Under the pieces are notes generated by a model that had not been told where the DNA came from, searched no databases, and saw nothing but the letters and a program-made list of their open reading frames with translations. From Thiobacillus thioparus DSM 505 (lineage in GTDB: Bacteria; Pseudomonadota; Gammaproteobacteria; Burkholderiales; Thiobacillaceae), in the NCBI RefSeq assembly GCF_000373385.1, contig NZ_KB891316.1, forward strand, positions 1-64,000: a stretch of 64,000 nucleotides of DNA, in the 5' to 3' direction. The translations under genes and the position numbers were made by a program. Shown here in pieces: positions 51,050 through 59,192 of this stretch; position 1 is the first letter of the stretch; each line of letters starts with the position of its first letter.

Positions 51050-52240
51050 ATGCATATACGAAAATTCTGGTTGCTCTTCGCTCAAACCACTACCGTGGCA
51101 CTGGGCGTATTGTTCATCATTGCCCTGTTCAAACCTGAACTTCTGCGCTGGCAGACACAAGCGCCGAGCCTGACCATCCAGCAGGCCACGCAACCCGCCA
51201 GCCGTACGCTCACGCCCGTCGAATCCTTTGCCCCGGCGGCACAGAAAGTGATCCCGGCGGTGGTTAACGTCTTCACGCAGCAAAAAGTCAGCAGTCCGGC
51301 CCACCCTGCCCTGCAGGATCCGATTTTCCGGTACTTCTTTGGCGATCGGCTGGATGCGCGCCCACGCGAAGTATCCAATCTGGGATCGGGCGTGATCATC
51401 AGTCCAAACGGCTACATTCTCACCAATCAGCACGTCGTCGAAGCCGCCGACGAAATCCAGGTGGCCTTGGCCAACGGCAAGACCGTACCCGCCCGCGTGG
51501 TCGGCTCCGATCCGGAGACCGATCTGGCGGTGCTGAAAATCGATGCCAGCGACCTGCCGGCGATCACCTTTGCCGAACCCGACAGCCTCGAAGTGGGCGA
51601 CTGGGTGCTGGCAGTCGGCAATCCGTTCGGTGTCGGCCAGACCGTCACTGCCGGCATCGTCAGCGCGCTCGGACGCACCCATCTGGGCATCAACACGTTC
51701 GAGAACTTCATCCAGACGGACGCCGCCATCAACCCCGGCAACTCGGGCGGTGCACTGGTCGATGCGTCCGGCAATCTGGTCGGGATCAACAGCGCAATCT
51801 ATTCGCGTACCGGCGGTTCGCAAGGCATCGGCTTCGCCATTCCGGTCAGCATCGCCCGCAAGGTGATGGAGCAGATCATCAAATCAGGAAGCGTGACGCG
51901 TGGCTGGGTCGGCGTCGAGGTACAGGATCTGAGCCCCGAACTGGCTGAATCGTTCAGCCTGAAAAGCGCGGAAGGTGCCTTGATCGCCGGCGTGCTGAAA
52001 GGAGGACCGGCCGACGTCGGCGGCATCCGTCCAGGCGACATCCTGCTGGCCGTCAACGGCCGCGCGGTGGTCGACTCCGCATCGCTGCTCAATCTGATTG
52101 CCGCGCTGAAACCGGGCGAAGACGCACAACTGACCCTCGCACGCAAACAGCAGACCTTGAATCTGAAAATCCAGGTCGGCCGGCGCCACATGCAGCGCAC
52201 GGTGGAATCGACGCAGGCGCCCGAGCCCGAGATCAACTAG
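51050..52240 (+). CDS. HtrA/DegS-type periplasmic serine protease
   Basis: 396-aa trypsin-like protease with one N-terminal membrane anchor (about 8-28). The catalytic triad is visible: His128 (TNQHVV), Asp158 (ETDLAV) and Ser232 (NPGNSGGAL). There is a single PDZ domain (about 265-365). One PDZ and a membrane anchor make it DegS/AlgW-like, i.e. an envelope stress protease. It converges with the ECF operon, overlapping the thioredoxin-domain gene by four bases, so a regulatory link to that operon is possible but unproven. Confidence 0.93.
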   Translation: MHIRKFWLLFAQTTTVALGVLFIIALFKPELLRWQTQAPSLTIQQATQPASRTLTPVESFAPAAQKVIPAVVNVFTQQKVSSPAHPALQDPIFRYFFGDRLDARPREVSNLGSGVIISPNGYILTNQHVVEAADEIQVALANGKTVPARVVGSDPETDLAVLKIDASDLPAITFAEPDSLEVGDWVLAVGNPFGVGQTVTAGIVSALGRTHLGINTFENFIQTDAAINPGNSGGALVDASGNLVGINSAIYSRTGGSQGIGFAIPVSIARKVMEQIIKSGSVTRGWVGVEVQDLSPELAESFSLKSAEGALIAGVLKGGPADVGGIRPGDILLAVNGRAVVDSASLLNLIAALKPGEDAQLTLARKQQTLNLKIQVGRRHMQRTVESTQAPEPEIN

Positions 52241-54039
52241 TCCGGCTGGATACGCGCCAGCACGCGCGTACGCGTAGGATAGGCGTACGGGTCCTGCTCC
52301 ATGGCCGGCAGGCGCCACCGCGCGGCACGGCGCGCCTGCTGATTCAAAACGGGATCCTGTACGCGCAGGCTGGCCAGGATGAGCACGTCGGAGGGTGAAT
52401 ACAGCGCGCCGTCGTCCAGCACCGGTTCGGCCTGCAAGGTCGCCAGCAAGGGCTGTGCCTCGCGCTTCCAGCCCTCCGCATGCCAGAACAAGCGCCAGGC
52501 AGTATGGGCAAGCTGCCGGGCCCGTTCGCGCGATTGTGCGTTGCCCGTGGCATCGGCATGGTCGAGCAGACCCTGCACCACATAGGCGTAATCCTCCAGC
52601 TCCGCATCCGGCAGGACCTGGCCATGCGCCATCGCTTTCACCAGCCGGCCGTCCCTGGCCAGCCGCGTCAAGAGGAAATGCTGCAAGCGGTCGGCCTCCC
52701 GGCGGTAGCCCGGATCGAGCCGGCTGGCCTGGCTGAACGCCGACAACGCGAGACCGTTCAGCCCGGCGTTCAACTTGTCGTCCTTGGGCAGGCTGCGCAT
52801 GCGCCTCACGGGATACAGGATATGCGCGGCTTCGGCCAGCAACGAGCGTTCGTCCGCCGTGGGGGGAACATATTCCGCAGGCAGGTAGCCCGCATCGAAA
52901 CTGCGCGGCGCATCGAGGCGCCACACCCGGTGCGCGGCCGCGTACACCGCTGGCGGCAGGCGCCGTTTCAGCTCATCGGGCGTCCATAGATACGTGGCGC
53001 CTTCGCGCCCGGCCGCGTCGACCGCCGACGTGCTGCTGTAGAAGCCGCCACGCGCATCCCGCAATTCATCCTGCATGAACCCGAGCGCACTGCGGGCGAC
53101 CTCGCGATAACGGGGTTGTTCCAATACCGTCGCGGCGCGCAGATACAGCACGGCCAGTTGCGCATTGTCGTAGAGCATTTTCTCGAAATGCGGCGTGTCC
53201 CAGTCGGGATCGACGGTATAGCGGAAAAACCCGCCGCCAATATGGTCCCGCATGCCGCGCGCCGCCATCTGGTCGAATGTCAGACGCAAGAATTCGCCCA
53301 GCCTGGCGTCAGGTTGCTGCGCCTGGCGATCCAGCAAGGCGCTCAACTGCGGTGCCATGGGAAATTTGCTGACCTGCCCAAAACCGCCATGCAGACTGTC
53401 GGCCTCCTGCCACACACCGGTCATGAAGCGTTCCCAGGCCTGTTCGCTCCGCGCAGCCGTCAGCGGTGCGTCTGCTGGCGGCTGCGCTGGCGGCGGCGCA
53501 ACCAGCGAAGCCAGCCGACGAATGCCGGCCCGGTCCGATTTCCAGCGTGCCGAAAGCTGGGTCAACAGCGTGCGGAATGCGTCGGGAGGCGCATACAAGA
53601 CCGTGAACGCCGGATAGCCTTCCGGCGTCACGAAGGCATTCAGAGGCCAGCCCGCCGCGCCCTGAAGACGAGCGGAAAATGTTTGCAGGGCATCGTCGAG
53701 TCCGGTGTTGAGCTCACGATCGACCTTGACCGGGATGAAGTCGCGGTTGAGCAAGGCCGCAATCTGCGAGTTCTTGTAGCTCTCGCGCTGCATGACATGG
53801 CACCAGTGACAGGCGAAATAGCCGACCGAAACGAACAGCAGCTTGTTTTCCTGTCGCGCACGCGCAATCGTGGCGGCATTCCATTCCTGCCAGGCCACCG
53901 GATCGTGTCCATGCAAAGCCAGATAGGGAGACGGATGATCGGCGAGTCGATTGACCAGCGGGGCTGCGCTCGCCTGTGCGGGCAACAGCAGGAACAGCAT
54001 CAGGACGGCAAGAACGGTTTCGCGCTTAAACCCGAACAT
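52237..54039 (-). CDS. exported DUF255 thioredoxin-fold protein (YyaL/SSP411-like)
   Basis: 600-aa protein. Signal peptide 1-26 (AQASA), then a thioredoxin-like domain with a CHWC redox motif (77-80) in VSVGYFACHWCHVMQRE, followed by a long alpha-helical region with DHIGGGFFRYTVDPDWDTPHFEKML, typical of the family's six-hairpin-like barrel. Most relatives are cytoplasmic and near 680 aa, so a signal peptide and a shortened C terminus are unusual. It overlaps the anti-sigma gene by 14 nt and is the last gene of the ECF operon. Confidence 0.85.
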   Translation of the reverse strand: MFGFKRETVLAVLMLFLLLPAQASAAPLVNRLADHPSPYLALHGHDPVAWQEWNAATIARARQENKLLFVSVGYFACHWCHVMQRESYKNSQIAALLNRDFIPVKVDRELNTGLDDALQTFSARLQGAAGWPLNAFVTPEGYPAFTVLYAPPDAFRTLLTQLSARWKSDRAGIRRLASLVAPPPAQPPADAPLTAARSEQAWERFMTGVWQEADSLHGGFGQVSKFPMAPQLSALLDRQAQQPDARLGEFLRLTFDQMAARGMRDHIGGGFFRYTVDPDWDTPHFEKMLYDNAQLAVLYLRAATVLEQPRYREVARSALGFMQDELRDARGGFYSSTSAVDAAGREGATYLWTPDELKRRLPPAVYAAAHRVWRLDAPRSFDAGYLPAEYVPPTADERSLLAEAAHILYPVRRMRSLPKDDKLNAGLNGLALSAFSQASRLDPGYRREADRLQHFLLTRLARDGRLVKAMAHGQVLPDAELEDYAYVVQGLLDHADATGNAQSRERARQLAHTAWRLFWHAEGWKREAQPLLATLQAEPVLDDGALYSPSDVLILASLRVQDPVLNQQARRAARWRLPAMEQDPYAYPTRTRVLARIQPD

Positions 54040-54754
54040 AGGTCCAGCCTTGCTGGAGCCGGGAAATGATTTCGCCGATGGCAGTGGGGGCCGTCCGGGT
54101 GGCAGGCAGCAACTCCACTTTTTGGCCCTCGCTGGTGAAACGGGCAATCGTCTGGCCGCACGCCACCCACTGCAGGTTTGCGTGGTGCTGCCTCATGCGT
54201 GCGATACGTTCTGCGTAGGGACTATGACCGGCGCGCAGAAGCTCGAGGCCATGGCTGTTGGCTATGACCTCGAGCTGCATGGCACGCCCCTGCCGGTCCG
54301 CGTCGTCCAGCAGCTGGTCGGCCCGATCCAGCGCCGCGCGCATCTTCTCCGGTGCCGCACTGTCGATATGCAGGATGATGCGATTGGGATCGGCTTCGCG
54401 CGCCAGGCTGACCGTCCGATACCCATCCGGAACCGCAGCAGGCTGTGTGACGCCTGCCTGCTGCCACGCCAGTCCACGCAAAGCCCAGCCACTGCTCAAG
54501 CCGACGAGCAGAACGAGGCAGCCGAATGCGCAGCGTTGCATCAACTGCCGGCGATGAACGGGCGGCCGAGCGTCGATGACCGGCGGCTCGGCGTACGCCA
54601 GCTTGACCATGCTGCGCAGGCTGCGCAACGCACAGACGCGCTGCGCCAACACTGGGTCTTGCTGCATCCGCGCGATCAGCGTTTCGCTCTCGGCCACATC
54701 AAGTTCGCCATCGATGAAGGCATGCAGAATCTCATCCGAAACAGCGGATTTCAT
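54026..54754 (-). CDS. membrane anti-sigma factor with a periplasmic DsrE-fold domain
   Basis: 242-aa protein. Residues 1-70 are a helical anti-sigma domain (EILHAFIDGELD, typical of ECF anti-sigma factors). One membrane helix lies at about 73-93. Residues 125-242 match the DsrE/DsrF fold: ILHIDSAAPEKM, LEVIANSHGLELLRAG, a conserved Cys199 in QWVACGQT, and IISRLQQGWTYVRV at the end. No zinc motif is visible. The start overlaps the sigma-factor stop by four bases. An envelope sensor of sulfur or redox state is inferred. Confidence 0.82.
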   Translation of the reverse strand: MKSAVSDEILHAFIDGELDVAESETLIARMQQDPVLAQRVCALRSLRSMVKLAYAEPPVIDARPPVHRRQLMQRCAFGCLVLLVGLSSGWALRGLAWQQAGVTQPAAVPDGYRTVSLAREADPNRIILHIDSAAPEKMRAALDRADQLLDDADRQGRAMQLEVIANSHGLELLRAGHSPYAERIARMRQHHANLQWVACGQTIARFTSEGQKVELLPATRTAPTAIGEIISRLQQGWTYVRV

Positions 54755-55305
54755 TTGACCCTCCTCAATTGCGGCTGGGCTGCCGGCTGCCGCATTGCAG
54801 GCCCCAGCAGGCTTTTCAGGGATGCGCGCGCACGCGACAGACGGCTCATCACAGTACCGACCGGGATGTCCAGGATCCCGGCCACTTCGGCATAGCTGAA
54901 CTCTTCCAGATCGACCAGCGTCAGAACCTGACGCTGTCCGAGCGGCAGGCGTTCCACGGCCTTGCGTACGCAGGTGATCACCTGTTCGCGATCGCAACAG
55001 GCATCGGGAGTGTCTGCCGTGGATTCGAGTTCGTCCTGCCAGTCCTCGACATCGTCAAAGTCGCGCCGGCTGCGCAAGTGATCGAGCCAGCAGTGGTTCA
55101 TGATCGACACCATCCATGCCTTCAGGGACGATTCGTCGCGCAACTGGCCGCGCCGCGTCCAGCCCTTGGAAAGGGCTTCCTGAACCAGATCGTCAGCCAG
55201 CGCGGCGTCATGGCACCAGGCGAAGGCGATTCGGTAGAGCACCGGGCGCAAGGCTTCGATACCGGGGCGAGGCGGGCCAAAAAGAAGACGACTGAGCATG
55301 ATCAT
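54751..55305 (-). CDS. ECF-family RNA polymerase sigma factor
   Basis: 184-aa sigma factor: sigma-2 region about 18-85 (DLVQEALSKGW, and SSLKAWMVSIMNHCWLDHLR as 2.3/2.4) and sigma-4 region about 118-168 (LPLGQRQVLTLVDLEEFSYAEVAGILDIPVGTVMSRLSRAR). First gene of the operon with the anti-sigma factor and the thioredoxin-fold protein. The promoter at 55314-55340 would place the mRNA start within a few bases of the ATG at 55305, so translation is probably leaderless or starts at the Met two codons on (55299). Confidence 0.93.
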   Translation of the reverse strand: MIMLSRLLFGPPRPGIEALRPVLYRIAFAWCHDAALADDLVQEALSKGWTRRGQLRDESSLKAWMVSIMNHCWLDHLRSRRDFDDVEDWQDELESTADTPDACCDREQVITCVRKAVERLPLGQRQVLTLVDLEEFSYAEVAGILDIPVGTVMSRLSRARASLKSLLGPAMRQPAAQPQLRRVK

Positions 55306-55313
55306 GTCCGGTT

Positions 55314-55340
55314 GACGGGAAAGATAGTCCTTTTATTCCA
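55314..55340 (-). promoter_or_regulatory. ECF-type promoter of the sigma operon (TGGAATAA-N15-CGTC)
   Basis: On the minus strand TGGAATAA (55340-55333) and CGTC (55317-55314) are separated by exactly 15 nt, a normal ECF geometry with a GGAA-type -35 and a CGTC -10. It is a perfect copy of the promoter on the other strand, which suggests autoregulation. Confidence 0.7.
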
Positions 55341-55360: not shown

Positions 55361-55387
55361 TGGAATAAGCGTTCCAGTAGGTCCGTC
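55361..55387 (+). promoter_or_regulatory. ECF-type promoter of the periplasmic DsrE gene (TGGAATAA-N15-CGTC)
   Basis: On the plus strand TGGAATAA (55361-55368) is followed after 15 nt by CGTC (55384-55387). The leader to the ATG at 55445 is about 50 nt and contains a good ribosome-binding site (AGGAG). With the opposite promoter it forms a dyad, TTATTCCA-N20-TGGAATAA. Confidence 0.7.
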
Positions 55388-55444: not shown

Positions 55445-55897
55445 ATGACCCGCGTTCTCACCCCGCTGCTTGCCGCCCTGTTTCTGGCTTGCGCTCCGAT
55501 GGCTCACGCCGCTCCCCAGGCTGAAGCCGCCGCCCCAGCCGCCTCCGACGAGGCAAAAGTCGTCTACCACATCAATGATGCCTCCGTCGCCCGTGCCGCC
55601 ATGAACAATATCAACAACGAGCTCAACGCCAGCCCGACCGACAAGATCGTCGTGGTGGCTCACGGTAAAGGTATCGATTTCCTGCTCAACGACGCCAAGG
55701 ATGACAAGGGCGCTTTTGAATCCCAGGTCGCCGCGCTGAAGAATCGCGGCGTTGATTTCCGCGTCTGCAACAACACCCTCATGTCCCGCAAACTGGGCCC
55801 GGACGCGGTCATCATGGAAGCCAAGGTGGTACCGTCCGGTGTGGCTGAACTTGCCCGTTTGCAGGCCAAGGAAGGTTACGTCTACATCAAGCCCTGA
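55445..55897 (+). CDS. exported DsrE-family protein
   Basis: 150-aa protein with a signal peptide (1-22, AHA), an Ala-rich linker and a DsrE/DsrF-like domain: KVVYHINDAS, KIVVVAHGKGIDFLL, a conserved Cys108 in VDFRVCNNTL, and GVAELARLQAKEGYVYIKP. DsrE-type proteins bind or transfer sulfur on such a cysteine; periplasmic forms are uncharacterised. Probable target of the divergent ECF sigma factor. Confidence 0.88.
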   Translation: MTRVLTPLLAALFLACAPMAHAAPQAEAAAPAASDEAKVVYHINDASVARAAMNNINNELNASPTDKIVVVAHGKGIDFLLNDAKDDKGAFESQVAALKNRGVDFRVCNNTLMSRKLGPDAVIMEAKVVPSGVAELARLQAKEGYVYIKP

Positions 55898-58682: not shown

Positions 58683-59192
58683 ATGAAATCGCTTCTGATT
58701 GCGTTGGCAGGCCTATTTCTGGGCTTGTCCACCTCGGTGCTTGCTGCGGGAACGTGGGTGGCCACGCCCTATGCGCCCGCCAAGGTCGTGTTCGAGTTCT
58801 ATCTGGACCACCCGCAGAAAATCGGCAGTGCGCTCTACTGGGTGCGTTCGCTGATGAACCCCTTGCTGGAGGCGCCTTACAACTATTCGCCCGAAGACCT
58901 GAGCCTCGTCGTCGTGATCCACGGCAACGAAATCGTGACGGTGGCGAAAAAGAACGAGGCGAAATACCAGGACGCGGTCGATCGCATGCGCTACTACGCC
59001 GGACTCGGGGTGAAGTTCAAGGTGTGCGGACAGGCGGCCGCGGACTTCGGCTACAAGGTGGAGGATTTCCAGGACTTCATCGAGGTCGTGCCCAATGCCA
59101 TCACCGAGCTGGCACACTGGCAACAGCAAGGCTATGCGCTGATCGTGCCCAAGGTCATGGAAAAGACGATCGACATCGAGTCGATCCGCTAG
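58683..59192 (+). CDS. exported DsrE-family protein
   Basis: 169-aa protein: signal peptide 1-22, then a DsrE-like fold with KVVFEFYLDHPQKI, LSLVVVIHGNEI, a conserved Cys115 in VKFKVCGQAA and ITELAHWQQQGYALIVPKV. It shares the cysteine position with the DsrE domain of the anti-sigma factor and with the exported DsrE protein at 55445. RBS AGGAGAG is present. It is 33 nt downstream of rsgA; no TGGAATAA promoter is visible in front of it. Confidence 0.85.
   Translation: MKSLLIALAGLFLGLSTSVLAAGTWVATPYAPAKVVFEFYLDHPQKIGSALYWVRSLMNPLLEAPYNYSPEDLSLVVVIHGNEIVTVAKKNEAKYQDAVDRMRYYAGLGVKFKVCGQAAADFGYKVEDFQDFIEVVPNAITELAHWQQQGYALIVPKVMEKTIDIESIR

Follow-up and report, generated by a model that had tools for sequence, protein, structure and literature searches.

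Among extracytoplasmic function (ECF) sigma factors, those of group ECF26 that are tied to sulfite oxidases respond to sulfite, as do the pairs of S. meliloti and Starkeya novella, and the RpoE1-like ones respond to taurine or tetrathionate; how they are released from the anti-sigma factor is stated to be unknown, and their promoters, with start sites determined by 5' rapid amplification of cDNA ends, have GGAAT as -35 and CGTC as -10 element (PMC6527743; this and the other papers given by PubMed Central (PMC) number are cited for part of their text). The mapped rpoE4 promoter has the same 26-nucleotide span as the motif analysed here, and the anti-sigma factors EcfR1, 3, 4 and 6 are said to have an RsiW-like periplasmic domain (PMC6180224). 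We studied a 64,000-nucleotide stretch of Thiobacillus thioparus DSM 505 (contig NZ_KB891316.1, positions 1 to 64,000; hereafter the window, its genome of 3.2 Mb being G000), in which an ECF sigma factor is paired with a membrane anti-sigma factor that ends in a DsrE-fold domain. Anti-sigma factors of the RsiW/MucA/RseA type have an N-terminal sigma-binding domain, one membrane helix and a periplasmic C terminus, a layout that the window protein shares, with another sensor domain. By sequence, the pair appears to be a variant of the sulfur-responsive pairs of group ECF26, with a DsrE domain in place of the usual sensor, and we regard it as on balance probable that loading of sulfur onto Cys199 of this domain frees the sigma factor. 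Behind this reading stand four observations: the sensor domain is exchanged, its cysteine is invariant, the promoter motifs are paired and conserved, and sulfur genes lie behind such motifs.

Residues 1-97 of the anti-sigma factor match nine anti-sigma factors, among them EcfR6 and the Sulfitobacter protein (hhalign 99.5%, E 2e-22), and the N termini of MucA and RseA are weak profile matches (E 0.35 and 0.51). The protein has kept the N-terminal domain, has one membrane helix, and is encoded by a gene overlapping the sigma gene by 4 bp on the same, minus strand, all of which are marks of a membrane anti-sigma factor whose N terminus presumably holds the sigma factor at the membrane. It lacks the RsiW-like periplasmic domain usual for ECF26, and the C halves of the nine compared factors give no match to its DsrE domain (hhalign 0.3%). 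The original prediction of an anti-sigma N terminus, a single membrane helix and a C-terminal DsrE fold with a conserved cysteine is upheld by profile, hydropathy and structure model: profile and structural comparison of residues 120-242 led to the DsrE fold, and hhalign pairs the Cys199 column with C108, the invariant cysteine of the DsrE profile, a cysteine matched in all 101 DsrE-profile rows of the named loci. Cys199 probably corresponds to DsrE-Cys78, by way of Cys108 of the secreted DsrE-family protein encoded next to the pair (E 0.003, one sequence) and by the fold match. The anti-sigma factor itself has no PF02635 match above the Pfam cut-off; its divergently encoded DsrE neighbour scores 47.5 against a cut-off of 22.7. 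A chance resemblance to DsrE was considered and rejected, as profile, fold and cysteine conservation all agree.

DsrE/TusD sulfurtransferases (PF02635) thus share with this domain the fold and, by profile, the position of the conserved cysteine. TusD is a free cytoplasmic protein. In Allochromatium vinosum DsrE, also free in the cytoplasm, Cys78 binds sulfur and passes it to DsrC (PMC3397948), and DsrE3A accepts thiosulfonate from tetrathionate (PMC4175335); the window domain is instead fused to a membrane anti-sigma domain and is predicted to be periplasmic. No paper on a fusion of an anti-sigma factor with DsrE was found in the open PMC literature, in line with the original prediction that none was known; automated names ("intracellular sulfur oxidation DsrE/DsrF family protein", "transmembrane anti-sigma factor") exist separately.

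In a tree of sigma factors with many open forks, few ECFs from outside and unsettled bootstrap values, the window sigma factor groups with RpoE6 (ECF26) and the Sulfitobacter sigma factor, apart from two other sigma factors of its own genome, L231 and L234. Its identity is 32% to RpoE6 (8e-19) and 38% to the Sulfitobacter protein (2e-20), by tblastn against four records that serve as a proxy for the published ECF26 models; rpoE6 was located by tblastn and by two motif sites identical to the promoters printed for SMa0142 and SMa0144 (PMC6180224). The likeness to the ECF26 pairs (S. meliloti RpoE1-EcfR1 and RpoE4-EcfR4, Starkeya novella SigE, and the Sulfitobacter pair beside a sulfite oxidase) extends to promoter, N-terminal anti-sigma domain, sigma factor and sulfur setting, and it is this kinship that the original prediction, right about the architecture, had missed. 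Loci of the window type differ in that sulfur carriers, and not sulfite oxidases, recur beside them. G000 encodes a second ECF26-like sigma factor, L235 (G000:C15:129112), whose anti-sigma factor is of the usual type; the two kinds of sensor thus occur together in one genome.

Both promoters of the window locus carry the ECF26 elements, -35 GGAAT(A) and -10 CGTC. GTDB genomes gave 246 named loci; of the best 80, 74 have at least 1.5 kb upstream, and in these we found GGAAT-N17-CGTC directed towards the sigma gene in 71/74 and towards the divergent gene in 67/74, against 0 and 0 for the motif read backwards as a control. Spacers other than 17 are rare in these loci, save for one of 22 on the divergent side: GGAAT-N22-CGTC occurs there as a second match in 22/74, either close to the 17-spaced one or overlapping it. 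In 66/74 the divergent gene encodes a DsrE protein. Among the 30 best loci of the order, the window included, 29 have the sigma-side motif, 25 the divergent motif and 23 the divergent DsrE gene (the order, class and named-locus collections overlap in part). The Sulfitobacter sulfite-oxidase gene is preceded by a motif of equal span, 26 nucleotides. At the window locus the -10 element of the sigma promoter ends only 8 bases upstream of the ATG at 55305, and therefore either the message is nearly leaderless or translation starts later.

Across 15 genomes there are 80 motif matches, 27 at sigma loci and 53 elsewhere; 14 of the 80 lie at most 450 bp upstream of a DsrE domain (by Pfam, 96 DsrE rows) and in the same direction, including three that are unlinked to the sigma locus (G000 contig C16, G150 and G020). 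In G043 and G261, a DUF255 gene not linked to the pair starts 56 and 81 bases, respectively, downstream of a motif's first base. One match in G000 is close to the gene of an outer-membrane-like protein that bears a haem-binding motif, next to one for a flavoprotein (Pyr_redox_2) that we take to resemble sulfide oxidoreductases. Divergent genes other than DsrE encode SoxY at two loci and a Sulf_transp protein at one; five others have a metallophosphatase (two), an AhpC-like protein, a porin below cut-off or no match (one each), a further one has a divergent gene without family match, and 13 of 35 further divergent neighbours scanned match Porin_O_P. The pair of G187 (L222, 1122-4481) stands inside a sox cluster in the order soxY, sigma, anti-sigma, soxA, and in G390 soxY follows the anti-sigma gene. 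An ECF sigma factor of Arcobacter butzleri, sigma-2, controls sox genes, activating nap and sox, and the part of that paper cited mentions no DsrE-type anti-sigma factor (PMC3445524). At L085 and L076 (G182) a membrane-protein-like open reading frame and a GGDEF protein start 52 and 102 bases downstream, counted from the first base of the match; these matches are possibly due to chance.

The survey for the same fusion that the original prediction had called for revealed a conserved module in many beta- and gammaproteobacteria. Full-length relatives of the anti-sigma factor (E below 1e-30) are found in 45/399 genomes of the order, in at least 66/369 of the class (hand count of rows spanning the model) and in 3/398 of the phylum, all three in the window's class. 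In the other phylum rows the match is confined to either the N-terminal or the C-terminal part, and a phylum-wide spread was rejected, as was an oddity of one genome, the fusion recurring across order, class and named loci. SoxY is present in 42/45 genomes of the order with the pair versus 205/354 without (Fisher test, 5e-7, uncorrected for shared ancestry). The named close proteins and loci are mostly from Thiobacillus. The closest named locus, L126, with a 97% identical anti-sigma factor, comes from a metagenome bin labelled Rhizobium sp., a label that looks wrong given its Thiobacillus relatives. A search of plasmids with the anti-sigma factor gave 3 partial Rhizobium matches.

Table 1. Features of the sigma/anti-sigma locus (positions in the window). 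Cysteine counts for the anti-sigma factor come from 356 relatives, 332 of them distinct, taken from loci and protein hits and including many close Thiobacillus relatives.
Feature	Position	Strand	Basis or remark
ECF sigma factor, 184 amino acids, ECF26-like	54751..55305	-	Pfam Sigma70_r2/r4_2; tree placement
Sigma factor Cys72, predicted cytoplasmic	55090-55092	-	cysteine kept in 121/124 distinct rows
Membrane anti-sigma factor with DsrE domain, 242 amino acids	54026..54754	-	
N-terminal anti-sigma domain, residues 1-60	54575..54754	-	helices 7-14, 20-32 and 34-55 in structure model
Cys41 codon, predicted cytoplasmic domain	54632..54634	-	conserved in 323/332 distinct relatives
Predicted membrane helix, residues 73-93	54476..54538	-	hydropathy; model confidence (predicted local distance difference test, pLDDT) <50 in that stretch
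DsrE-fold domain, residues 120-242, predicted periplasmic	54029..54397	-	profile, structure model and fold match
Cys199 codon	54158..54160	-	invariant, 332/332 distinct relatives
DUF255/DsbH thioredoxin-like protein, signal-peptide-like start	52237..54039	-	Pfam Thioredox_DsbH 2.2e-48
Sigma-operon promoter, GGAATA-N16-CGTC	55314..55339	-	
Promoter of secreted DsrE gene, divergent, GGAATA-N16-CGTC	55362..55387	+	
Secreted DsrE-family protein, 150 amino acids, signal-peptide-like start	55445..55897	+	Pfam DsrE 2.5e-12

The ATG of the DUF255/DsbH gene (54039) lies inside the 3' end of the anti-sigma gene, and because consecutive genes overlap, sigma, anti-sigma and DUF255/DsbH look like one operon (Table 1), with the divergent DsrE gene about 140 bp away. 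Another DsrE-family protein whose start resembles a signal peptide is encoded at 58683-59192 (+) (Pfam 2.7e-15), and many Thiobacillus loci have a second DsrE gene 1-6 kb from the module; no promoter motif was found ahead of the one in the window, even allowing one mismatch. A gene at 51050-52240 (+) encodes a DegS/HtrA-like, trypsin-like protease that has a PDZ region and, at its N terminus, an anchor-like stretch; it could be a site-1 protease or a mere neighbour.

In the mechanism that we propose, the N terminus of the anti-sigma factor would tether the sigma factor at the membrane until a persulfide or thiosulfonate forms on Cys199, either directly or by delivery from the secreted DsrE protein encoded alongside. 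Transmitted across the membrane, this change would free the sigma factor, which would then read GGAATA-N16-CGTC promoters and yield more of its own operon and of the periplasmic sulfur carriers; in some species sulfur-oxidation genes may be switched on as well. Such a loop would adjust the capacity of the carriers to how much sulfane sulfur the envelope holds. Taken together, the chemistry of DsrE-Cys78 and DsrE3A and the sulfur signals of ECF26 make sulfur on Cys199 the most economical signal; ligand, polarity and the part played by the secreted protein are what we infer. A more specific version, which we consider somewhat less likely than not, is that the loaded secreted DsrE hands a sulfur atom (or thiosulfonate) to Cys199 in the periplasm, this relay reaction itself being the transmembrane signal that fires the ECF26-like sigma factor; Cys41 and the sigma factor's Cys72, both strongly conserved, might add a contact or a second check for sulfur on the cytoplasmic side.

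Several observations weigh against sulfur loading of Cys199 as the signal. Cys41, in the cytoplasmic domain, is almost as conserved as Cys199 and could be the real sensor in its stead. The direct hhalign comparison of the anti-sigma DsrE domain with the genome's own DsrE and DsrF fails. For ECF26 pairs the signal in print is sulfite and not persulfide (PMC6527743). Control by this sigma factor is something we infer from motif conservation, and in the wider class only 20 of the 29 best loci have the sigma-side motif, 10 the divergent motif and 14 the divergent DsrE gene. The backward pattern alone yields 23 matches in the 15 genomes, and of the 53 matches away from the sigma loci three precede DsrE and two DUF255; the others examined have no recognised sulfur gene, except the one beside the flavoprotein, and this includes the G000 matches C1:109160, C12:98565 and C2:17022. 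Three of the 45 genomes with the anti-sigma factor show no SoxY.

The constancy of the DsrE gene as partner of the pair, with a promoter in common, would also fit an alternative that we consider unlikely, in which the DsrE domain is a docking site for the secreted DsrE protein, which in its sulfur-free or its sulfur-loaded state would hold or release the anti-sigma factor, and Cys199 serves assembly or transfer and is not the switch. G020 and G150 have no DsrE gene paired at the sigma locus, yet their unlinked DsrE gene has the motif, and DsrEFH is a mixed hexamer (PMC3397948); at some loci, however, soxY, Sulf_transp or other genes hold the place of DsrE. Less probable again is that the signal is sulfite, as in the S. 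meliloti and Starkeya novella pairs, which would strip or modify a resting persulfide on Cys199, the loss of sulfur freeing the sigma factor. Sulfite does attack persulfides as a matter of general chemistry, and the promoter is the same as that of the ECF26 pairs. But the pair is flanked in the window by DsrE and DUF255 genes, there is no sulfite oxidase among the 10 window proteins scanned, nor is a sulfite-oxidase family among those shown for 58 of the 89 listed neighbours at related loci (25/31 and 24/24 families shown), and for the EcfR anti-sigma factors an RsiW-like domain, not DsrE, is on record (PMC6180224).

A general sensor of thiol or metal stress in the envelope, with Cys199 oxidised or metal-bound and the sulfur genes as part of a wider regulon, seems very unlikely to us: there are DUF255/thioredoxin-like and DsbC/DsbD-like neighbours, and Cys41 and Cys72 are also conserved, but the recurring motif-linked genes are sulfur carriers and sox genes, and SoxY is enriched in genomes with the pair. 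Given the conservation of the promoters and the sulfur-gene targets, sulfur sensing is more likely than a generic redox role. We give hardly any credence to the idea of a DsrE domain that acts as a folded, passive spacer, with cleavage by a DegS-like protease as the signal; the protease gene with its PDZ region is at hand, but a cysteine kept in 332/332 relatives is not expected of a spacer.

The sensor slot of a sulfite-responsive ECF architecture is here occupied by a domain related to proteins that carry sulfur on a single cysteine, and the putative regulon is conserved. This bears on how sulfite-responsive ECF anti-sigma factors detect their signal and release the sigma factor, which is stated to be unknown (PMC6527743). 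The promoter could serve as it stands in a sulfur biosensor. SqrR, CstR and FisR are cytoplasmic persulfide repressors, and the pair is a candidate periplasmic counterpart to them in bacteria that oxidise sulfur for energy.
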